This document shows, one piece after another, positions 1,680 through 32,395 of a stretch of 41,936 bases of DNA (the first letter of the stretch is position 1; the number at the start of each line of letters is the position of its first letter). The stretch covers positions 1-41,936 of the forward strand of contig CACDEU010000008.1 in the NCBI GenBank assembly GCA_902551895.1, in the 5' to 3' direction. Both the position numbers and the translations under genes were made by a program. This DNA is from an uncultured Pelagibacteraceae bacterium. Lineage in GTDB: Bacteria > Pseudomonadota > Alphaproteobacteria > Pelagibacterales > Pelagibacteraceae. A model generated the notes under the pieces. That model saw only the letters and a list, made by a program, of their open reading frames with translations. It did not search any database and had not been told where the DNA came from.

Positions 1680-2669
1680 TTAAATATTTTTTTTAATTAA
1701 ATTTTTTAATAAATTTATATGATCATCATTATCATTTAGACATGCTATCATATCAAAATTCTCGCCACCCGAATCCATAAAGCTCTTTTTGCCCTGAATT
1801 AATATTTCTTCTAATGTTTCAACGCAATCAGAAGAAAAACCAGGACATATCGTGAGAATATTTTTTTTTCCTTCTTTTGGTAAGTTTTCTAAAGTTTTAT
1901 CCGTATATGGTTGAAGCCATTCTTGTGGCCCAAATCTAGATTGGAAAGTAGTTTTAATTTCAATAGATTTAAATTTTTCTGCAACTAATCTTGTAGTTTT
2001 ATGACAATAACAATGATAAGGATCTCCTTTATCAAAGTACTTTTTAGGTATCCCATGATAAGAAGCTAAAATCAAATCTGGTTTCCAATTTATATTATTT
2101 ATTTTAACATTTATTGAATTTACTAAGGCATCTATGTATAATGGATTAGATTCATAGTGTGGAATAATTTTCAAAGATGGCTGCCACCTCATATCCATTA
2201 AAGTTCTATATACTTCGTCACAAACAGTTGCTGTAGTTGCGGCAGCATATTGCGGATAAAGAGGTAGAATTACAAGATTTTCACAACCTTCTTCGTTTAA
2301 TTTTTTTATTTTGCTTTTAATACTTGGGTTTCCATATCTCATTGCAAAATCTATAATCAGATTTTCATCTGAAAATGATTTTGATAATTTTTCAGCTTGT
2401 TTTTTTGTGTAATAAAGTAACGGGGATATATTTTCTTTTTTCATCCATATTTCCTTATAAGCCTTAGCACTTTTTGATGGCCTAAAATTTAGAATAAAAA
2501 GATTAAGTATAATTTGCCAAATTATTGGGTTTACTTCTATTACTCTTCTGTCTGATAGAAACTGCCTAAGATATCTTCTAACATCTAGCCAGTTTGTAGA
2601 GTCTGGGGTTCCTAAATTAATTATTAAAACCCCAGTCTTTCCATATTTTATTTCAGGATGTTTTTCCAT
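1680..2669 (-). CDS. hemH: Ferrochelatase
   Basis: Inserts ferrous iron into protoporphyrin IX to form protohaem. The 329 residues match the family length. Visible motifs are the N-terminal VLIINLGTPDS, the LPLYPQYAAATTA stretch near residues 135-147, and the SYHGIP motif with the metal-site histidine H205. The following GDPYHCYCHKT segment is also typical. Its ATG shares one base with the hemE stop codon (TAATG), so the two are probably translationally coupled, and hemJ follows 3 bases later. Confidence 0.96.
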   Translation of the reverse strand: MEKHPEIKYGKTGVLIINLGTPDSTNWLDVRRYLRQFLSDRRVIEVNPIIWQIILNLFILNFRPSKSAKAYKEIWMKKENISPLLYYTKKQAEKLSKSFSDENLIIDFAMRYGNPSIKSKIKKLNEEGCENLVILPLYPQYAAATTATVCDEVYRTLMDMRWQPSLKIIPHYESNPLYIDALVNSINVKINNINWKPDLILASYHGIPKKYFDKGDPYHCYCHKTTRLVAEKFKSIEIKTTFQSRFGPQEWLQPYTDKTLENLPKEGKKNILTICPGFSSDCVETLEEILIQGKKSFMDSGGENFDMIACLNDNDDHINLLKNLIKKNI

Positions 2670-3670
2670 TATTTAAAATCTCTGACTATTTTTACTAGCT
2701 CTTCTACCATCTCAATTTTCGTTTCTGGCAAAATACCATGCCCAAGATTAAATACATAAGGGTGGTCTTTAAAAATTTGAAGATATTTTATTACCTCTAT
2801 ATTCAAGTTTTCCTTGTTGGTTAAAAGTACTTTTGGATCTAGCCCTCCTTGTACTGGTATTTTTATTTCATTAATTATTTTTTTAGGATCAATATTGTAA
2901 TCAATATTCACCATGTCGGGTTTAACCTCTTCACAAAAGCTCTTATAATCGTTTATACCTCTTGGAAAACAAATAACTGGTACACCTAATCTTTTTACAT
3001 GGTTAACAAGGTCTAGAGTTGGTTCATATATATATTCAAAAATATTCTCTTCTAGCAATCCTGCCCAACTATCAAAAATTTGTATTACACTTGCACCTGC
3101 TTTTACTTGATTTTCAACATGAATTTTAAGAAACTTAACAATTAGAGCAATCAATTTTTTAATAAATAATTTATCTTCGAAAATTTTTTTTGAAAGACTA
3201 TTTTTTGGTGACATTTTATTAATCATATAAACTAAGATCGTCCACGGTGCTCCAACAAAACCGATTAAATCTTTGTTCTTTAAAATAGGGCTAGAAGATG
3301 TTTTATATATAGACTTGTAAACAGGGTCAAGTTTTCTACTAAATTTATCTTTGTTAATTTTTTCTAATTTGTTTATATTTAGTTCACCTAATTTAGGTCC
3401 CAACCCCTTTTCGAATTTTACTTCTTGTCCCAAACCATATGGGAGCATTAAAATATCAGAGAAAATTATCGCTGCATCAAAATCAAATCTATTAATTGGT
3501 TGTAATGTTATTTCTGACGACAAATTTTCATTTAAACATAATTTTATAAAATCAGGATTTTTAACTCTAATCTCCCTAAACTCAGGAAGGTATCTTCCAG
3601 CCTGCCTCATTATCCATATAGGATTTATTTTAGTATCTTTTTCTTTTACACATTTTTGAATCGGAGTCAT
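2669..3670 (-). CDS. hemE: Uroporphyrinogen decarboxylase
   Basis: Decarboxylates the four acetate side chains of uroporphyrinogen III to give coproporphyrinogen III. The 333 residues carry the signature IWIMRQAGRYLPEFR at about 18-32, whose arginines R22 and R26 bind substrate, then IIFSDILMLPYGLG and GFVGAPWTI. The C-terminus ends with the typical NLGHGILPET segment. It is the first gene of the minus-strand hem operon. In Caulobacter and Rickettsia hemE borders the replication origin, and here it faces a 285-base AT-rich gap with ppsR on the far side. Confidence 0.96.
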   Translation of the reverse strand: MTPIQKCVKEKDTKINPIWIMRQAGRYLPEFREIRVKNPDFIKLCLNENLSSEITLQPINRFDFDAAIIFSDILMLPYGLGQEVKFEKGLGPKLGELNINKLEKINKDKFSRKLDPVYKSIYKTSSSPILKNKDLIGFVGAPWTILVYMINKMSPKNSLSKKIFEDKLFIKKLIALIVKFLKIHVENQVKAGASVIQIFDSWAGLLEENIFEYIYEPTLDLVNHVKRLGVPVICFPRGINDYKSFCEEVKPDMVNIDYNIDPKKIINEIKIPVQGGLDPKVLLTNKENLNIEVIKYLQIFKDHPYVFNLGHGILPETKIEMVEELVKIVRDFK

Positions 3671-3955
3671 AAAATAGTATATATATAAACTTTAATAGTT
3701 GTTTTATATCCTGTTAATAAAAGGTATTATTAATTTTTAACATTTTACTCACTAAATATTAACAGATAAAACTATTAAAAAGTTAAGACAAATAGCCTCT
3801 TTTTCACAAATTCTAAACAATATAAATATTTATGTATATTAATTATTAATATGTTTATTTATGTTAATAATTTTAAAGATATTCAAATAAAAAATGAAAT
3901 GAAAACAATCAATGATTTTTAAATTTTTTATTAGATTATTATAAACACTTTATAC
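3671..3955. other. Putative chromosomal replication origin (oriC) and divergent promoter region
   Basis: This 285-base gap between divergent hemE and ppsR is the longest non-coding stretch in the window and is extremely AT-rich. Three sites fit TTATNNACA, i.e. the DnaA box TTATCCACA with changes only at positions 5-6: TTATTAACA on the minus strand at 3720-3712 and 3870-3862, and TTATAAACA on the plus strand at 3939-3947. TTTTTCACA at 3800-3808 is a weaker match. No open reading frame is supported. The flanking gene order (rho, hemH, hemE / ppsR, maf, aroE, coaE, dnaQ, secB) matches the alphaproteobacterial origin cluster. The boxes are degenerate, so the call rests mainly on synteny. Confidence 0.5.
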
Positions 3956-4777
3956 ATGAGTATTAAACACGATATTTACTTAATTTCTGACTCAACAGGC
4001 GAGACAATTGATAGGATATTTTTAGCTTTAAAAGCTCAATTTTTAAATTTTGAATATATTAATCATCAATTTTCATTTACTAGAACAAACAATCAAATTT
4101 TAAAAATTATAGAACTAGCTAAAAAACAAAAAGAACCAATAATCCTTTATACTATAGTTGATGATAATCTTTCCCAATATTTAGAAGAACAAGCAAGCAA
4201 ATTTAATATACCATGTTTTAGTGTACTTGGAGATTTAATATTAAATTTTTCTAAATTGTTAAATCAGAGAGCATCACATATTCCAAGCGGTCAACATACA
4301 TTTGAAGAAAATTCTAAAAGAATAGAAGCTATCCAATTTACAATGAATCATGATGACGGGAGTATGATACAAGACTTAGAAAAATCAGATATTATTTTAC
4401 TCGGTGTTAGTAGGACAGGAAAAACACCAACGTCTATATATCTTGCTAATAGAGGATATAAAACCTCTAATATTCCGTTAGTAAATGAAAATTCAATACC
4501 TGAACTGCTTAGAGAAAAACCAAAACTTAAATGTGTTGTAGGTTTAACAGTTGAGCCAAATAGATTGATTGATGTGAGAAAAAATAGGATGATGGCTCTA
4601 AAAGAAGAACACGGAACTGATTACACTAATATAGAAAAAATAGAACTAGAAACCAGGAAAGCTAAAGAAGCGTTTAAAAAATATCAATGGCCAGTAATTG
4701 ATGTTACTAGAAAATCAATTGAAGAAACTGCAGCTTCAATTATAAAAATCTATGAAATAAAAAATCAAAATGCTTAA
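3956..4777 (+). CDS. ppsR: Pyruvate,phosphate dikinase / PEP synthase regulatory protein (DUF299)
   Basis: Bifunctional serine/threonine kinase and phosphorylase that switches PEP synthase or pyruvate phosphate dikinase off and on, using ADP and inorganic phosphate. The 273 residues begin IYLISDSTGETID, the hallmark of the family, and carry a P-loop LLGVSRTGKTPTS at about 148-160. Which dikinase it controls cannot be told from this window. It overlaps maf by 8 bases and heads the plus-strand run maf-aroE-coaE-dnaQ. In Caulobacter and relatives this gene is the first one on the right side of the origin. Confidence 0.93.
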   Translation: MSIKHDIYLISDSTGETIDRIFLALKAQFLNFEYINHQFSFTRTNNQILKIIELAKKQKEPIILYTIVDDNLSQYLEEQASKFNIPCFSVLGDLILNFSKLLNQRASHIPSGQHTFEENSKRIEAIQFTMNHDDGSMIQDLEKSDIILLGVSRTGKTPTSIYLANRGYKTSNIPLVNENSIPELLREKPKLKCVVGLTVEPNRLIDVRKNRMMALKEEHGTDYTNIEKIELETRKAKEAFKKYQWPVIDVTRKSIEETAASIIKIYEIKNQNA

Positions 4778-5351
4778 AATAATTCTTGCATCTAATAGCA
4801 AAGTTAGAAAAAAAATTTTAGATGAAAATAGAATTGATTGTGAAGTTTTTCCATCTAATGTTGACGAAGAATTAGTAAAAAAAAGTTTGTTAAAAGAAAA
4901 TGCAGCCCCAGAATTAATTTCAAAAAACTTAGCGGAACTAAAGGCCAATAAAATAAGTTTAAAATTTTATAATCAAATTGTACTTGGGGCCGATAGCGTA
5001 ATAGATATAGATAATGAGCTAGTGTCAAAACCTAACGATAGAAAAAAAGCACTTGAAATATTAAAAAAACTTAATGGTAAAACTCATTATTTAATAAGCT
5101 CAGTTTGTATTTCAAAAAATGGTTCCATGATTTGGAATTATACAGATAGAGCAGCTTTGACAATGAAAGAACTGACAGATAAACAGCTCAAAGAATATTT
5201 GTCAAAAATTAGTGATGAAGCCCTTTATTCCTACAATGTTTATCAGATTGAAGGCGAGGGTAGATCCTTATTTTCAAAAATCCATGGCGATGAAAATACT
5301 ATCATGGGCCTTCCTATTAAAAAAATTAAGGAATATTTAAACACTTTATAA
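4770..5351 (+). CDS. maf: Maf family nucleotide pyrophosphatase
   Basis: House-cleaning enzyme that hydrolyses non-canonical or selected nucleoside triphosphates to monophosphates. The 193 residues open with MLKIILASNSKVRKKIL, the typical Maf start with the S-x-x-R substrate loop. The LGADSVIDID segment (about residues 70-79) carries the catalytic aspartate, followed by SKPNDRKKA and the late EGEGRSLFSKIHGDENTIMG segment. The sequence does not decide between the dTTP/UTP and m7GTP subgroups. It overlaps ppsR by 8 bases and shares one base with the aroE start (TAATG). Confidence 0.92.
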   Translation: MLKIILASNSKVRKKILDENRIDCEVFPSNVDEELVKKSLLKENAAPELISKNLAELKANKISLKFYNQIVLGADSVIDIDNELVSKPNDRKKALEILKKLNGKTHYLISSVCISKNGSMIWNYTDRAALTMKELTDKQLKEYLSKISDEALYSYNVYQIEGEGRSLFSKIHGDENTIMGLPIKKIKEYLNTL

Positions 5352-6139
5352 TGAAAAAATATTTAGTTATCGGCAATCCTATCGAACATTCTATGTCCCC
5401 AAAACTTCACAACTACTGGTTAAAAGAAAATAATATTAATGCTATCTATGATAAAAGAAAACTTGAGGTTAGTGAGCTAAAAAGGATTATTTCTCAAGTA
5501 AAAGAAGAAAAAATAAATGGTATCAATGTTACTGTACCATTTAAAAAAACAGTTATTCCTTTTTTAGACGAATTAAGTACAGAAGCAAAAGACACACAAT
5601 CAGTAAACACAATTTATTTCCAAAATGGAATTACAATTGGTCACAACACAGACATAGCTGGATTTGAGTTAGCAATAAAGTATGCTAAATATGACCTTGC
5701 CAACAAGAAAATATTTGTATTGGGCGCTGGAGGCGTCTCTCCCTCAATTATTTATGCTCTTAGAAAAATGAAAGTTTCTAAAATTTCATTAAGTAATAGA
5801 ACCAAAGAAAAAGCAGAAAGTTTAAAAAATTTATTTAAAGATATTGAAATAGTTGATTGGGGTGAAAGAATAGATTTTGACATGATTATAAATGCTACAA
5901 GTATTGGTTTAAAAAATGAAGATAGTTTAAATTTTGATTATTCAGCAAATGGTCCAGATAAATATTTTTATGATGTTATTTATAATCCAAAAGAAACTCT
6001 TTTTTTGAAGAGGGCAAAATTATTTGGCAATAGAACAGAAAATGGAAAAATGATGTTTATATATCAAGCTCACCAATCATTTACTATTTGGAATAAGATA
6101 ATGCCAAAAATAAATGAAGAAGTAATTAAGTTAATTTAA
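5351..6139 (+). CDS. aroE: Shikimate dehydrogenase
   Basis: NADPH-dependent reduction of 3-dehydroshikimate to shikimate in the aromatic amino acid pathway. The 262 residues show the substrate-binding NPIEHSMSPKLHN near the N-terminus, the catalytic-lysine motif NVTVPFKK, HNTDIAGF, the nucleotide-binding LGAGGVSPSI and the NATSIGL motif. It is coupled to maf by a one-base overlap and abuts coaE directly. Confidence 0.96.
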   Translation: MKKYLVIGNPIEHSMSPKLHNYWLKENNINAIYDKRKLEVSELKRIISQVKEEKINGINVTVPFKKTVIPFLDELSTEAKDTQSVNTIYFQNGITIGHNTDIAGFELAIKYAKYDLANKKIFVLGAGGVSPSIIYALRKMKVSKISLSNRTKEKAESLKNLFKDIEIVDWGERIDFDMIINATSIGLKNEDSLNFDYSANGPDKYFYDVIYNPKETLFLKRAKLFGNRTENGKMMFIYQAHQSFTIWNKIMPKINEEVIKLI

Positions 6140-6715
6140 ATGATTAAAATAGGTATTTTAGGAGATATTGGTTCTGGGAAAACATTTGTGGCAAATCAAT
6201 TTGGTTGTCCTGTATTTCATGCAGATATAGAAGTATCTAAAATATACAAAAGCGACAAAAGGTGCTTTAAAATATTAAAAAAAAATTTTCCAAATTATAT
6301 AATTTCTTTTCCAATAAATAAAAAAGAAATTTCTAAATTAATATTATCAAATAAAAAAAACTTAAAAAAAATAAATAAAATAGTACATCCTATTGTACGA
6401 GCTAGAATGAATAAATTTATTAATAAAAATAAAAAAAAAAAACTAGTAGTTCTAGATATTCCTTTACTTTTAGAAAACAAAATAAATAAAAAAGATTTCA
6501 TTCTTGTTTTTATTGATGCAAAAAAAAAAAAAATTATTAAAAATCTTAAAAAAAGAAAAAATTATAATGTAAAAATAATTAATTTGTTAAAAAACTTTCA
6601 ACTATCGTTAAATTACAAAAAAAAAATATCAAATTTTATCATTAAAAATGATTTTAAAATGAAACCAGTCAAAAAAAGTGTTAATATAATAAAAACCAAA
6701 ATTTTACATAAATGA
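6140..6715 (+). CDS. coaE: Dephospho-CoA kinase
   Basis: Phosphorylates dephospho-CoA at the 3'-hydroxyl, the last step of coenzyme A synthesis. The 191 residues start with the P-loop IGILGDIGSGKTFVA (residues 4-18), then CPVFHADIEVSKIY with the substrate-binding aspartate and VVLDIPLLLE in the middle. The protein is extremely rich in lysine, isoleucine and asparagine, and the gene holds uninterrupted A runs of 12 (6431-6442) and 14 (6520-6533) within the reading frame. It abuts aroE and overlaps dnaQ by 4 bases (ATGA). Confidence 0.93.
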   Translation: MIKIGILGDIGSGKTFVANQFGCPVFHADIEVSKIYKSDKRCFKILKKNFPNYIISFPINKKEISKLILSNKKNLKKINKIVHPIVRARMNKFINKNKKKKLVVLDIPLLLENKINKKDFILVFIDAKKKKIIKNLKKRKNYNVKIINLLKNFQLSLNYKKKISNFIIKNDFKMKPVKKSVNIIKTKILHK

Positions 6716-7383
6716 AAGAAGTAGTTTTAGATACAGAAACCACAGGTTTATCGGTCAAAGATGGACATAGAATTGTTGAGATAGGGTGCATTGAGTTAGA
6801 TAATTTAATTCCTAATTCAAATAAATTTCATTGTTATTTGAATCCTGAAAGAAAAGTTTCTGAAAAAGCATTAGAAGTTCATGGATATACAGATCAATTT
6901 TTAGCAGATAAAAAAAAATTTATAGATATAGCTGATGATTTTCTTTTATTCATTAAGGATAAAAGATTAATAATTCACAACGCCGAATTTGATATTACGC
7001 ATCTAAATAATGAACTTCAAATTGCTGGAAAGGAAAAAATAAATATTAAAAATGTAATAGATACATTGGATATAGCTAGAAATAAATTTCCGGGATCACA
7101 AATTAGTTTAGATGCATTATGTAAAAGATATAGAATAGATAATTCAAAAAGACAAAAACACACTGCATTGATAGATTGTGAACTACTAACAAAGGTTTAC
7201 ATAAATTTAATTGATCAAAAAGAACCTTCTTTAAATTTTGCTTCTGGTTATCAAGATAATAATGATGTTAACTTTAAAAATACAATTAACTATTCAAAAA
7301 AAATAATTAAGCCTTCAGAAAAAGAGTTGTCTCTGCACAAGGATTACTTAAAAAATTTTCTTAAAAAAAATTATTTTAATTAA
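6712..7383 (+). CDS. dnaQ: DNA polymerase III epsilon subunit (3'-5' proofreading exonuclease)
   Basis: Proofreading exonuclease of the replicative polymerase. The 223 residues show all three DEDDh motifs: Exo I VLDTETTGL with D7 and E9, Exo II IIHNAEFDITHLNNEL, and Exo III HTALIDCEL with the catalytic histidine and aspartate. The C-terminal tail after about residue 175 is the part that contacts the polymerase alpha subunit in the family. It overlaps coaE by 4 bases and runs 8 bases into the 3' end of convergent secB. Confidence 0.95.
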   Translation: MKEVVLDTETTGLSVKDGHRIVEIGCIELDNLIPNSNKFHCYLNPERKVSEKALEVHGYTDQFLADKKKFIDIADDFLLFIKDKRLIIHNAEFDITHLNNELQIAGKEKINIKNVIDTLDIARNKFPGSQISLDALCKRYRIDNSKRQKHTALIDCELLTKVYINLIDQKEPSLNFASGYQDNNDVNFKNTINYSKKIIKPSEKELSLHKDYLKNFLKKNYFN

Positions 7384-7798
7384 GTCTTTGATTATATAAT
7401 TGTTCAAAATCGACTTTTTTTTCAAATTTAATATTAGGAAAACCGGAGTTGTTCAAAAGATTAATAAAAATTTTTTCTATATTTGGATATATTTGTTTTT
7501 GGACATCACATAAAATTATTTTTTCAATTATTTTTCGATCCTTCATTTCTTCATCTATCTTTATTATTGAAGCATAGTTAATTTCAAAATAGGATTTATT
7601 TTTTGATTTTCCTTTATCGGAATATGATAGTTTTGTGTTAATCTCGATCATTCTATTTTTTAGAGGCTTGGTTGTTATATCAATATCTAAATTATAATTT
7701 TTTAAATATTCTTTTACATATAAATAAGTTTCAACATCTGGGGTTTCAGACGACATATCTTTTACAAATTGAGTAATTATTTTAAATTGTTCTGACAT
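7376..7798 (-). CDS. secB: Protein-export chaperone SecB
   Basis: Tetrameric cytosolic chaperone that keeps precursors unfolded and hands them to SecA. The 140 residues are divergent but retain the N-terminal QFVKDMSSETP pattern, the alternating strands around NRMIEINTKLSYSD, the YPNIEKIFINLLNNSGFPNI helix and the closing VDFEQLYNQR, which corresponds to the usual IDFxxLY ending. Position next to dnaQ and an FxsA gene is as in Caulobacter and other alphaproteobacteria, which supports the call despite weak sequence similarity. Confidence 0.88.
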   Translation of the reverse strand: MSEQFKIITQFVKDMSSETPDVETYLYVKEYLKNYNLDIDITTKPLKNRMIEINTKLSYSDKGKSKNKSYFEINYASIIKIDEEMKDRKIIEKIILCDVQKQIYPNIEKIFINLLNNSGFPNIKFEKKVDFEQLYNQRLN

Positions 7799-22675: not shown

Positions 22676-22787
22676 ACTTCATAATTAACGTTGAGTCTTT
22701 GTAAGTATAAAGGTTGATTTTTCTGACTTACCATTTGTTTACACTTTAGCCGCAGTCAATCATCAAAAATGAACTTTTTAATATTGC

Positions 22788-22816
22788 TTGAATTAAAAAA
22801 AACCTCTATTTATAAT
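22788..22816 (+). promoter_or_regulatory. Promoter of tRNA-Gly
   Basis: TTGAAT (22788-22793) and a perfect TATAAT (22811-22816) are 17 bases apart, with the tRNA beginning 14 bases further on. This is the cleanest sigma-70-type promoter seen in the window. The same transcript may read into the pterin dehydratase gene. Confidence 0.7.
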
Positions 22817-22829
22817 AACTTTTTAATAA

Positions 22830-22904
22830 GCGGGCATAGCTCAGTGGTAGAGCGTCTCGTTGCCAACGAGAAGGTCGTGGGTTCAAGTCCCATTGCCCGC
22901 TCCA
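22830..22904 (+). tRNA. tRNA-Gly (anticodon GCC)
   Basis: A complete cloverleaf of 75 bases. Acceptor GCGGGCA pairs with TGCCCGC, the D arm is AGCTCAGTGGTAGAGC, the anticodon stem TCTCG/CGAGA encloses loop TTGCCAA with anticodon GCC, the T arm carries GTTCAAGTC, and discriminator T is followed by an encoded CCA. It reads GGC and GGU glycine codons. Confidence 0.97.
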
Positions 22905-22921
22905 ATTAAATAAGGATAGAA

Positions 22922-27543: not shown

Positions 27544-29361
27544 TTAGTGTTTGCCAAGGATCGATTTACCAGCTGGTACTCGAACCTCATCAACCATTTT
27601 TTGTGTAGCAGCATCAGGTTCTGAAGTAATTAAACTTACAACAACCATAGATACTAAGCTGACAGCTGAACCGAAGATACCAAACGTTAACTGTGTAATA
27701 CCTAAGAATCCACTTCCACCATTTCGTACCCAAATTAGGTAACCCATACCAGAAGCAAGACCTAAAGCCATACCAGCTATAGCACCTTCTCTGTTAGCTC
27801 TCTTCCACCATACACCAAGTACAAGTGGGAAGAACAATCCAGACATCGCAAAGTCAAAAGCCCAGATTACCGAACCTAAGATACCTTGGATCTCCATTGC
27901 TGCAATAGTTGCTCCAGCAAAACCAATTACTACAAGTAATACCCTTGCAACAACTAGTCTTTTTGCAGTTTCTGCTTTTGGATCAATGATCTTGTAGTAC
28001 AAGTCATGAGATAAAGCATTTGCAATCGCTAGAATTAAACCATCGGCTGTTGACATGGCAGCGGCCATACCTCCAGCAGCAACTAGACCTGAGATTACAT
28101 ATGGTAATCCAGCTATTTCCGGAGTTGCTAACACAACGGCTTTACCACCCATGAAAAACTCATTTAATTCAAGAGTTCCATTTCCGTTAAAGTCGCTTAC
28201 AAACATTAAGTTTGCTTGGTTCCAGTTTTGATACCAATCTATCGCTTGAACTTCACTTATCGATTTACCAATAATTCCAGTCGCTAAGTTAGGATCTATC
28301 AATGACAATTTAGATAGTGTCGCTAACATTGGAGCAGAAGAATAAAGTAAGAAGATAAAGAATAAAGACCAACCTACTGATTTTCTAGCTGCTTTTACAC
28401 TTGGAGTAGTAAAATATCTCATCATCACGTGAGGCAATGAAGCTGTTCCCATCATCATCGCTAGTGCTAACGAAATAAATGCCCAAGGTGTAGCGTTAAC
28501 CGCTGAGTGAGCTTTAGTTATACCTGCTAAACCTTTTGGTACAGTTGCTAAATCAGCTGCAGAGTTTGTTACTGTTCCTAAACCAAATTGTGCTTCAAGA
28601 TCAGCAATTCTCGCAACTTCATCAGCTAACATAAAGTGTGGGAAGAAACCCGCACCCATTTTGTTACTGATCCAAAATACCGGAAGCAAGTAAGCTATTA
28701 TTAATACGATATATTGTGCAACCTGTGTCCAAGTTACCCCTCTCATACCACCTAACATTGAACATAGTAAAATACTTACTAATCCAACATAAACTGCGTA
28801 TTGGAATGGGATATCTAGAGCAACAGATGCAATAGTACCTGTAGCGTTAATTTGTGCAGTCACATAAGTAAAGGAAGCAACAGTTAAGACTACTACTGCT
28901 AGAAACCTACTTAAATTACCACCGTATCTTGTACCAATGAAATCTGGAACTGTGTAACAGCCAAATTTTCTTAGGTATGGTGCTAATAAAGATGCGACTA
29001 ATACATATCCACCAGTCCAACCTACAAGTAGTGCCATATAACCGTAACCTTTGAAGTAAATACCACCTGCCATTGCAACGAATGATGCACCAGACATCCA
29101 GTCTGCTGCAGTCGCCATTCCATTAAACACGGTCGGTACTTGTCTTCCAGCTACATAATAAGCATCAGCTTGTGCTGTACGTGATAGATAACCAATTATA
29201 GCGTAGATGGCCACAGTAAAAGCAACGAATGCAATTCCTATTGTTTTTGCTGTCATACCCATCTGTTCGCCAATTGCCATAATGATTATGAAAGCTAAAA
29301 ATCCACCTGTGTAGATTCCATAAACTTTAGGCAAATTATCTATAAAATTACCTTTAATCAT
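27544..29361 (-). CDS. Sodium:solute symporter, ActP-like large subunit (VC_2705 type)
   Basis: Sodium-driven importer of the SSS family, 605 residues with about 13 hydrophobic helices. The segment AGRQVPTVFNGMATAADWMSG (71-91) is the family's sodium-site region, and ASLPHVMMRYFTTPSVKAARKS (308-328) and AAMSTADGLILAIANALSHD are typical too. Likely substrate is acetate, pyruvate or lactate; acs lies 1 kb away. An exact EF-hand loop DFNGNGTLELNE occupies residues 390-401 in a loop between helices. Codon use is richer in G and C than the neighbours, and a strong AGGAGGAG site precedes the start, pointing to high expression. Paired with the DUF4212 subunit (TAATG). Confidence 0.93.
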   Translation of the reverse strand: MIKGNFIDNLPKVYGIYTGGFLAFIIIMAIGEQMGMTAKTIGIAFVAFTVAIYAIIGYLSRTAQADAYYVAGRQVPTVFNGMATAADWMSGASFVAMAGGIYFKGYGYMALLVGWTGGYVLVASLLAPYLRKFGCYTVPDFIGTRYGGNLSRFLAVVVLTVASFTYVTAQINATGTIASVALDIPFQYAVYVGLVSILLCSMLGGMRGVTWTQVAQYIVLIIAYLLPVFWISNKMGAGFFPHFMLADEVARIADLEAQFGLGTVTNSAADLATVPKGLAGITKAHSAVNATPWAFISLALAMMMGTASLPHVMMRYFTTPSVKAARKSVGWSLFFIFLLYSSAPMLATLSKLSLIDPNLATGIIGKSISEVQAIDWYQNWNQANLMFVSDFNGNGTLELNEFFMGGKAVVLATPEIAGLPYVISGLVAAGGMAAAMSTADGLILAIANALSHDLYYKIIDPKAETAKRLVVARVLLVVIGFAGATIAAMEIQGILGSVIWAFDFAMSGLFFPLVLGVWWKRANREGAIAGMALGLASGMGYLIWVRNGGSGFLGITQLTFGIFGSAVSLVSMVVVSLITSEPDAATQKMVDEVRVPAGKSILGKH

Positions 29362-29624
29362 TAATCATCTCCTCCTTTTTCACTGAAACCGAACTCTTCA
29401 TCGATTTTTTCTTGTCTGTTCGCAAACCAGAAAATTAGGATTACAAAAATTCCAAGAGATCCCTGACAAGTAAACCAATATGTCAGTGGATAACCGAAGG
29501 GTCCACCAACGGACTCCATTTCAGCGCCAAAAAGGAAGATGCCAATTGAGAATACAAACCAAATTGCTAATGTTACCATTAACAATCCTCTGGTTTTTTC
29601 CCAGTGTTGTGCTTGTTTTGACAT
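29361..29624 (-). CDS. DUF4212 small subunit of sodium:solute symporter
   Basis: Protein of 87 residues, the small partner that always precedes VC_2705-type symporters. It shows HWEKTRGLLMVTLAIWFVFSI (about 7-27) as first helix, a conserved FPLTYW-like block here FGYPLTYWFTCQGSLGIFVILIFWFANRQEK as second helix, and an acidic tail. It is preceded by a good AGGAG site and is first in the operon. Coupled to the large subunit by a one-base stop/start overlap. Confidence 0.93.
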   Translation of the reverse strand: MSKQAQHWEKTRGLLMVTLAIWFVFSIGIFLFGAEMESVGGPFGYPLTYWFTCQGSLGIFVILIFWFANRQEKIDEEFGFSEKGGDD

Positions 29625-29747
29625 TATTATCTCCTCTTTTAGTTATAACTGGCGGAAACCATAACCATTATGAAAGAGATTTAAAGTGTTAAAATTGTTA
29701 ATAATAGTGGTGTTTTTAGGGTATAAAATAAATAAATAGCTATTTTT
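29625..29747. promoter_or_regulatory. Divergent promoter region of the symporter operon and unknown gene
   Basis: This 123-base gap separates the divergent starts of the symporter operon and the 207-codon gene to the right. On the plus strand TATAAA near 29722 could be a -10 box for the latter; on the minus strand a CATAAT is possible. Neither has a convincing -35 box, and no operator palindrome stands out. Confidence 0.45.
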
Positions 29748-30371
29748 ATGGCAAAATACAAATTAACTTGGAAAGATCTTACTTGGAAAGACTTTAAGAT
29801 TTATCTTTTTTCACTTTTTAAAGCTTTCATACCAAAGACAAAAATAAGTAATTTGGATGAGTTAGAGGATTTTATACAATCCAAATCAGCCTGGGTTACA
29901 CAAGTAACACTTTATGGTTATTTAAAAACTAGAATGGGAACAAGATATGTTCTTCATTTTGAAAATGATAAATTCATGGCATCTGTAAATCTAGCTAAGT
30001 GGAATATGTATGCCGTTGCTCTCCAAGATCTGACATTTTTTACATTTTCTTATTTAAAAAATAATTTGAATTATCAAGAAATTAACAAAGCTAAAGAAAT
30101 TTTTTTAAAAATTTTAGATGATGAAACTACAAATAAAATGCCATTAGATATTATTGAGGAAGCAAAAAAGAATTTTAATGATAGATTACAAAATATTAAT
30201 TGGAATACCTATTGTAATGATCTTCCATTTAATCCTAGTGCATTATCATTATATAAGTGGGCGCCCATAGCTGATGAATTAAAAAAACTTGATCGTAAGA
30301 TAGTTTTAAATTCAGTAATTTTAAAGTGGGATATTGTTAAAAAAGAATTTAACGAAAGAATAAAGTTCTAA
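29748..30371 (+). CDS. Protein of unknown function
   Basis: A 207-residue, apparently cytosolic protein that I do not recognise. It starts [20 protein letters not shown], a near-duplication of LTWKD, then [20 protein letters not shown], which is the most family-like block, and [24 protein letters not shown] near the end. No signal peptide, clear membrane helix or metal motif is visible. It is divergent from the symporter operon and overlaps the 3' end of convergent acs by 4 bases. A role linked to acetate-type carbon use is a guess from position only. Confidence 0.8.
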
Positions 30372-32395
30372 GTATTTTTTCTATTCTCAACTAGACTTTT
30401 AACTACACTTGGATCAGCTAAAGTTGTCGTATCTCCAAGTTGTTCATGTTCATTAGCGGCTATCTTTCTTAAAATTCTTCTCATTATTTTTCCAGATCTT
30501 GTTTTTGGTAGTCCAGGTGAAAATTGAATAAAATCTGGAGTAGCAATCACACCAATTTGTTTTCTTACCCATAGTTTTAATTCTCTTTCTAAATCTCCAC
30601 TTGGTTCCTCTCCTACATTCAAAGTTACATAACAATATAATCCATTTCCTTTTATATCATGTGGACATCCAACTACTGCAGCCTCAGCAACTTTTGAATG
30701 CGCTACAAAGGCACTCTCTACTTCTGCAGTTCCTAAATTATGGCCAGATACAATAATAACATCATCCACTCTTCCAGTTATCCAGTAGTATCCATCTTTG
30801 TCTCTTCTACAACCATCCCCTGTAAAATATTTTCCATCGAACTGAGAAAAATATGTTTCTATAAATCTATTATGGTCTCCATATACAGATCTCATTTGAC
30901 CTGGCCAAGATTGAGCTATACACAATCTCCCTTGTGCTTCCCCTTTTAAAACTTTGCCATCTTTATCGACTATTTCTGGTTTAATTCCGTAAAATGGTTT
31001 TGTTGCAGATCCTGGTTTTAAGTCTATTGCTCCAGTTTGTGGACTAATTAATATTCCACCTGTTTCAGTTTGCCACCAGGTATCAACAATAGGACATCTA
31101 GAATCACCTACAGTCTTAAAATACCATTGCCAGGCTTCAGGATTTATTGGCTCTCCAACAGTTCCAAGTAATTTTAGAGTTTTTCTTGATGTTTTTTTTA
31201 CAGGCCCATCTCCTTCTCTCATCATTGCTCTTATTGCAGTAGGAGCGGTATAAAAAATATTTACCTTATATTTATCTACTATTTGCCACCACCTAGACCA
31301 GTCGGGATAATTTGGAATACCTTCGGACATAATTGTTGTTGCTCCATTTGAAAGAGGTCCGTAAATAATATAGCTATGACCCGTGACCCATCCAATATCA
31401 GCAGTGCACCAATATATATCTTTTGGTTTATAATTAAAAATATACTGATGTGTCATTGATGCATAAACCATGTAACCACCAGTCGTGTGCAAGACTCCTT
31501 TTGGTTTTCCTGTAGATCCAGATGTATATAAAATAAATAATGGATCTTCTGCATTCATTTCTTCTGGTTCACAACTCTTTGAAGCTCTTTTAGTTATGTC
31601 GTGATACCAAACATCTCTACTTTCATCCCAATTAATTCTATTTCCAGTTCGTTTTACTACAACGCACTTTTTAACATTTGGGCAGTTCAAAAGTGCTTCA
31701 TCAACTTTTTCTTTTAAGTCTATAATTTTTCCCCCTCTAACACCTTCGTCAGCTGTAATAACGTAGTCAGATTTACAATCATTAATTCTTCCAGATATAC
31801 TGTCCGCTGAAAAACCTCCAAAAATAATTGAATGAACGGCTCCTATTCTTGCACATGCTAGCATTGTATATGCTAACTCAGGTATCATTGTTAAATAAAT
31901 TGTAACTCTATCTCCTTTTTTTACCCCTATATCTTTTAATCCATTTGCTGCTTTACAAACTTCTTGATGTAATTGTTTGTAGCTAATTTTTTTTTGTACT
32001 TTCGGATCATCCCCAACCCATATTATTGCAGTTTTATCTTTATTTTTCTTTAAATGACGATCAATACAATTAGCTGAAGCGTTTAAAGTTCCATCATAAA
32101 ACCATTTAATATTAACTTCGGTCTTGCTGTATTTATAATCTTTAATTTTTGTATACGGTTTTATCCAAGTGATTCTTTTGCCTTCTTTTTTCCAGAAATT
32201 ATCGTTGTTTTTTATTGAATCTGAATATTTTTTTTCATATCCTGATTTATTTACTATTGCTTTTTTTATCCAATCACTTTTTGTTTTATAAATTAATTCA
32301 GAATTTTCATTTTTTTTAACTTTATTTTTTTTAAATCTTTTTTTTCTTGAAGATTTTGTCTTTTTAATTTTTTTTCTTTTTTTCTTTTTTGGCAT
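30368..32395 (-). CDS. acs: Acetyl-coenzyme A synthetase with a lysine-rich N-terminal extension
   Basis: Activates acetate to acetyl-CoA through acetyl-AMP. The 675 residues show the ATP loop [15 protein letters not shown] (about 289-303), [13 protein letters not shown], the [23 protein letters not shown] hinge region and the C-terminal [11 protein letters not shown] with the acetylatable lysine. The core aligns with the usual 650-residue enzyme from about residue 35; before it lies an added stretch in which 19 of the first 28 residues are Lys or Arg. No other start codon would remove it. Likely expressed with tsaD and the EVE gene upstream; the start is 6 bases after the EVE stop. Confidence 0.96.

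Follow-up and report, generated by a model that had tools for sequence, protein, structure and literature searches.

The non-coding gap at positions 3671-3955 of the window (the whole 41,936-nucleotide stretch that was analysed) is very probably the chromosomal replication origin (oriC) of this Pelagibacteraceae (SAR11) genome, judging from its sequence and those of its relatives, and it occupies the hemE|ppsR (COG1806) site. A first-pass annotation had proposed a putative origin here, and this proposal is supported by the conservation of DnaA boxes in 99 distinct gaps and by a GC-skew minimum in three relatives. The genome of which the window is contig 8 comprises 1.03 Mb in 56 contigs and is judged 81% complete; its closest named relatives are single-cell and metagenome genomes of Pelagibacteraceae. 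SAR11 bacteria rank with the most numerous cells of the ocean, and a reliable origin is required for estimating growth rates from metagenomes; a gap of fixed length (280 bp) would serve as an origin anchor in fragmented genomes, where skew is unusable.

The gap measures 285 bp at 14% GC, in line with its initial description as AT-rich, and no longer stretch lacking ORFs of at least 60 aa is found in the window. The runner-up by this measure, 22676-22921, contains a tRNA, which is the sole match of the RNA-family search. The gap is bordered by divergent genes, as had been stated: hemE on the left (uroporphyrinogen decarboxylase; 2669-3670, minus strand; TIGR01464 and PF01208) and ppsR on the right (COG1806/DUF299, Kinase-PPPase; 3956-4777, plus strand; PF03618 and NF003742). 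Beyond hemE, all on the minus strand, are hemH (ferrochelatase; 1680-2669; TIGR00109), hemJ (protoporphyrinogen oxidase; 1242-1676; TIGR00701) and rho (3-1175, partial at the contig end; TIGR00767, 654 bits). Beyond ppsR, the plus strand carries maf (4770-5351; TIGR00172), aroE (5351-6139; TIGR00507), coaE (6140-6715; TIGR00152) and dnaQ (6712-7383; TIGR01406), followed by secB on the minus strand (7376-7798; PF02556). The gene order given in the first-pass annotation is therefore borne out by profile matches, namely rho-hemJ-hemH-hemE and ppsR-maf-aroE-coaE-dnaQ-secB, except that hemJ had been omitted. We take DUF299, COG1806 and PF03618 to be one family, and the protein that flanks the Caulobacter origin to be a member of it. 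Elsewhere in the window (27544-32395), genes for a DUF4212 protein, a VC_2705-type sodium/solute symporter and an acetate-CoA ligase are grouped in DNA that is locally GC-richer (about 0.33-0.37).

According to the available text of PMC1914354, experiments have mapped the Caulobacter origin (Cori) to the interval between hemE and COG1806, that of Rickettsia is placed there too, and this agrees with the earlier assignment of the flanking genes to the origin cluster of these two organisms. The SAR11 gap resembles the Caulobacter crescentus Cori and the Rickettsia origin, as far as they are described there, in its flanking genes, its AT-richness and its DnaA boxes. The location of dnaA elsewhere on the chromosome is a further shared feature.

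The arrangement is highly conserved in SAR11. Of 151 genomes, 102 gave a PpsR match, among them 84 of the 91 that belong to the window's genus, and hemE is divergent beside ppsR in all 30 loci examined from this search. In a second set, the best 80 of 569 relatives with named records, which partly overlaps the first 30, 78 loci carry the hemE|ppsR gap. A non-coding gap between hemE and a COG1806/PF03618 gene, the setting of a Cori-type origin, is thus present here and in 108 of 110 SAR11 loci overall (30 + 80, partly overlapping). The two exceptions are L079, where a contig end cuts the locus, and L125, which has other DNA upstream of ppsR; in L125 the DNA upstream of position 1787 is coding-like and stands in place of hemE, through either a rearrangement or an assembly chimera. 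The 108 gaps reduce to 99 distinct sequences of 264-289 bp, and since these gaps are related, counts over the 99 are not independent events.

The three DnaA-box-like sites noted at first, which match TTATNNACA at 3712-3720 (minus), 3862-3870 (minus) and 3939-3947 (plus), were all confirmed. TTATNNACA is unenriched over the whole window (10 found vs. 16.2 expected), and 3 of these 10 sites fall within the gap, i.e. in 0.7% of the window; when the gap itself was shuffled 5000 times with its dinucleotides preserved, at least three sites turned up in 0.3% of the shuffled sequences, against a mean of 0.32 sites. The 99 distinct gaps hold 307 matches, compared with 35.5 in 200 dinucleotide shuffles (sd 5.9, largest 52), and no other XXXXNNXXX pattern is as enriched in them as TTATNNACA. 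These shuffles rule out chance AT-richness as the source of the boxes. A cluster of DnaA boxes, as in a Cori-type origin, is thus present, with 3 exact boxes here and a mean of 3.1 per gap over the 99. Forms of TTAT[T/A/C][A/C]ACA account for 294 of the 307 boxes. The strict TTATCCACA box was rejected as the site set: it is present in only 3 of the 99 gaps, and with one mismatch allowed it is found 6 times in the window (13.6 expected) and never inside the gap.

It had been suggested that relatives' gaps be aligned in search of a conserved motif, and in the 99 distinct gaps the motif does occupy fixed columns. Box 1 (3712-3720, minus; TTATTAACA) adjoins the triplet array described below and is an exact TTATNNACA in 59 of the 99 gaps. 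It is followed by three plus-strand boxes that are degenerate in the window and begin 11 bp apart, namely: box 2 (3734-3742; TTTTTAACA, one mismatch; exact in 41/99), box 3 (3745-3753; exact in 12/99) and box 4 (3756-3764; ATATTAACA, one mismatch; exact in 33/99). Box 5 (3862-3870, minus; TTATTAACA) is the most conserved, being exact in 84/99, and box 6 (3939-3947, plus; TTATAAACA; exact in 57/99) adjoins the start of ppsR. In the 99 gaps, same-direction sites with one mismatch are spaced by 11 bp in 90 cases (4.9 in shuffles) and by 22 bp in 80 cases (5.0 in shuffles). The DnaA protein has 474 aa and matches the N-terminal, ATPase and helix-turn-helix families. The first-pass idea of an unusual DnaA site set therefore goes too far where the boxes are concerned: they are ordinary boxes that have drifted towards AT, and DnaA itself is ordinary.

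GC skew was analyzed in three one-contig relatives, G003, G037 and G199 (60, 54 and 64% sampled, as 40, 39 and 39 stretches of 20 kb, respectively), the source genome being too fragmented. A cumulative skew minimum at this gap had been named beforehand as the sign of an origin. The G-C minimum does fall in the stretch adjoining the gap, and not beside dnaA, in all three sampled relatives, and the maximum lies roughly half a circle away, at +685 of 1343 kb (G003), +674 of 1438 kb (G037) and +610 of 1211 kb (G199). The skew switch of a Cori-type origin is thus seen in three relatives and not in the 56-contig source genome itself. The G-C score at the gap was reached by 0 of 2000 permutations in each of the three genomes and the coding-strand score by 0 of 2000 in G003 (P 0.0000) and 6 of 2000 in G037 (P 0.0030), values that are flattered because the 20-kb stretches were treated as independent. 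In G003 and G037, genes directed away from the gap make up 59-64% of the coding DNA. The GC skew mostly reflects gene orientation. Fourfold-degenerate sites, tried as a measure free of gene orientation, proved unhelpful, with no consistent change of sign in the first 20 stretches of each of G003 and G037. Furthermore, no other 285-bp window of the sampled DNA has as many boxes as the gap in G037 and G199 (4 boxes each), and in G003 the gap shares first place, at 3 boxes, with a second window.

The gap also survives the loss of either neighbour. In G199, a complete genome from a different genus of the family, ppsR has Rho as its neighbour in the usual place of hemE (84% identity to the Rho of the window), and the rho|ppsR gap of about 340 bp contains four boxes. 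Here hemE is at 718 kb (L299) and the gap at 141 kb (L293), about 577 kb apart; over the 39 stretches, skew is lowest and boxes are densest at this gap between rho and ppsR, and 90% of positions outscore a split at hemE. Conversely, none of the 13 genomes searched in a second family of the order has PF03618. The 12 of that family with hemE (L198-L209) have a gap of 273-293 bp before the next divergent gene, a range affected by the uncertain hemE start of L201, and that gene is Maf (34% identical in L198, the one tested; read by eye in the others). As a separate observation, the place next to hemH that hemJ occupies in the window is taken in L198 by a gene for a menaquinone-dependent protoporphyrinogen dehydrogenase of the hemG type (3490-3963; NF008316), and by eye such a gene is beside hemH in L201 and L203 as well.

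These results bear on two other readings of the gap. It could be only the promoter region of hemE and ppsR, its boxes being regulatory sites for DnaA or a product of chance in AT-rich DNA. Divergent genes such as these do require promoters, DnaA is able to act as a transcription factor, and six sigma-70-like sites lie within 3600-4020, though shuffles give 4.9. A promoter region, however, would not account for a skew minimum at the gap or for boxes nine-fold above shuffles, and the persistence of gap length and boxes both without ppsR and without hemE indicates that they follow neither gene. We therefore consider this reading very improbable. Still less credible is an origin beside dnaA, as in many bacteria, with dnaA lying at -62 kb (G003), +60 kb (G037) and -72 kb (G199) from the gap. 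The adjacency of dnaA and dnaN is observed, and the G199 permutations do not reach the score of a split at dnaA either (G-C 0/2000), which follows from dnaA being only 72 kb from the gap; the gap nevertheless outscores dnaA (14695 vs. 11205). Moreover, the best splits, at +43 kb (G003), -10.5 kb (G037) and +34 kb (G199), and dnaA lie on opposite sides of the gap in all three genomes, and the densest-window lists hold no window near dnaA with more boxes than the gap. In Caulobacter, too, dnaA is located elsewhere on the chromosome, away from Cori.

With the gap read as oriC, its control sites can be compared with those of Cori, namely five for CtrA and one for IHF (PMC1914354, in the available text). 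Unlike Cori as described there, the SAR11 gaps show no enrichment of CtrA, IHF or GANTC sites, and their boxes are AT-drifted. CtrA sites (TTAA-N7-TTAA) are absent from the window's gap and number 29 in the 99 gaps (30.9 expected); IHF sites are likewise absent from the window's gap and number 11 (7.4 expected, largest shuffle 15); GANTC is found twice in the 99 gaps (10.2 expected). In the same source, E. ruminantium is one of the relatives reported to have no CtrA sites either, so these sites do not define the location of the origin, and Pelagibacter is described as having no ctrA orthologue (PMC2877005, in part). The SAR11 gap is very probably a member of the hemE/COG1806 origin class, with an apparently reduced set of control sites. 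As for previous work on SAR11 origins, a figure legend in PMC4033161 states that oriC was identified by hand in HTCC1062, its place not being given in that legend, and the accessible text of PMC9516812 reports the use of GC skew for a Pelagibacter MAG, in which GANTC methylation falls from ori to ter. Set beside that gradient, the rarity of GANTC in the 99 gaps is odd.

On the hemE side of box 1 is a feature absent from the first-pass annotation, a phased array of triplets (TAA TAG TTG TTT TAT; 3693-3707, plus strand) that may correspond to DnaA-trios. T occurs at -19, -16, -13, -10 and -7 from the box at 3712 in 96, 98, 99, 90 and 89% of the 99 gaps, respectively, and at all five phases in 84 of them. 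The triplets over the 99 gaps are TAT (156), TAG (130), TTG (84), TAA (37) and TTT (36), with rarer others. TAG reaches 1.61 per 36 nt in the array vs. 0.29 elsewhere in the gap, and its complement CTA 0.02 per 36 nt in the array. By eye, TAG/TTG triplets also precede CCTGTG or TTTGTG in all 12 second-family gaps.

The array is similar to the DnaA-trio/BUS element of Bacillus subtilis as presented in the available text of PMC8287927: a box, a short spacer and phased triplets are found in the expected orientation, strand and side, and 3'-GAT-5' (5'-TAG-3') is a common triplet in both. The array nevertheless departs from the published trio rule, which fixes a middle A (PMC8287927; review PMC6727663, both in part). 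Its fixed base is the 5' T; in the middle, SAR11 has A or T, and other alphaproteobacteria have A, T or G. The source genome's own array is weak and fails the NAN rule, having no run of three NAN triplets where at least three are expected within 16 bp of the box. NAN runs as such are not enriched in the 99 gaps (51 vs. 55 in shuffles); those bearing TAG number 43 vs. 9.8 in shuffles. In addition, the T-D-G-T repeats contain TTGT, which along with TTATT is a single-stranded DUE motif of Escherichia coli (PMC10797057, in part), and both elements would by analogy be read by DnaA as single strand; E. coli differs from SAR11 in having 13-mers and no phased array beside the box.

We looked for the same pattern at 88 loci from across the class, of which 12 with no hemE match and then 6 duplicates among the 76 gaps were dropped, leaving 70. 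T-D-G runs of at least 4 triplets occur in 13 of the 70 gaps (0.22 in shuffles) and in none on the opposite strand; runs of at least 3 are present in 29 and absent from 41. Among the 16 X.Y triplet forms, T.G ranks first (13 vs. 0.30 in shuffles) and G.T second (7 vs. 0.42). The middle base in the 29 gaps is A 38, T 38, G 34 and C 0 times; the T and G ends are set by the search pattern, while the even spread in the middle is not imposed. A reverse DnaA box with at most 2 mismatches follows within 30 nt of the run in 18 of the 29, as opposed to 14% for random windows of the same gaps. Other repeats were rejected: the canonical NAN trio does no better than shuffles, and [TA]A[GA] gives runs of at least 3 in 21/70 gaps vs. 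12.3 (largest of 40 shuffles, 19) and of at least 4 in 4/70 vs. 1.7 (largest shuffle, 5).

From these patterns we infer that the array may be a loading track for DnaA. It might instead belong to the promoter of hemE or result from DNA that is AT-rich or prone to repeats, which we regard as a possible but less probable explanation. The array lies 22-53 bp upstream of hemE in the window, and a weak reverse-strand promoter match (3717-3689) overlaps its region. Across the class, however, its distance to hemE (median 81 nt, range 42-265) is too variable for part of a promoter; and neither version readily accommodates a phase fixed in 84 of 99 gaps, longer runs confined to one strand (13/70 vs. 0/70), the first rank of T.G or the box that follows the array in 18 of 29 gaps.

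In the loading-track reading, DnaA would bind the fixed outer boxes at 3712, 3862 and 3939 and then fill the weaker ones at 3734, 3745 and 3756, where the 11-bp spacing in one direction would bring the bound proteins onto one face of the helix. Starting at the box at 3712, a DnaA filament would extend onto the single strand of T-W-G/T triplets (3693-3707), which would act as DnaA-trios with a fixed 5' T and a free middle base; the duplex would open on the hemE side and the helicase would load there. Control of such an origin would operate with no clustered CtrA, IHF or GANTC sites in the gap.

The broader proposal, to which we give about an even chance, is that alphaproteobacterial origins, including those of SAR11, use a deviant DnaA-trio, 5'-T-D-G-3' (3'-G[A/T/G]T-5'), in which both ends are fixed and the middle base is free, and that SAR11 drifted to T-W-G/T and lost the clustered CtrA, IHF and GANTC sites, arriving at a near-minimal origin of 280 bp. 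This would be the kind of trio, lacking the middle adenine, that the authors of the BUS survey suspected and left undescribed in the available text of PMC8287927. Among open-licence papers, in the portions accessible, we found no description of the SAR11 hemE|ppsR gap or of a free-middle trio. If the T-D-G array is where DnaA takes its grip, the middle-A rule is too narrow, and Caulobacter and other alphaproteobacteria in culture would allow a direct test of the idea. Finally, in many of the class gaps (L228-L297), just past the T-D-G run, CCTGTG-n-A is followed about 10 nt on by CGGGGAT, and this motif is perhaps a second type of box.
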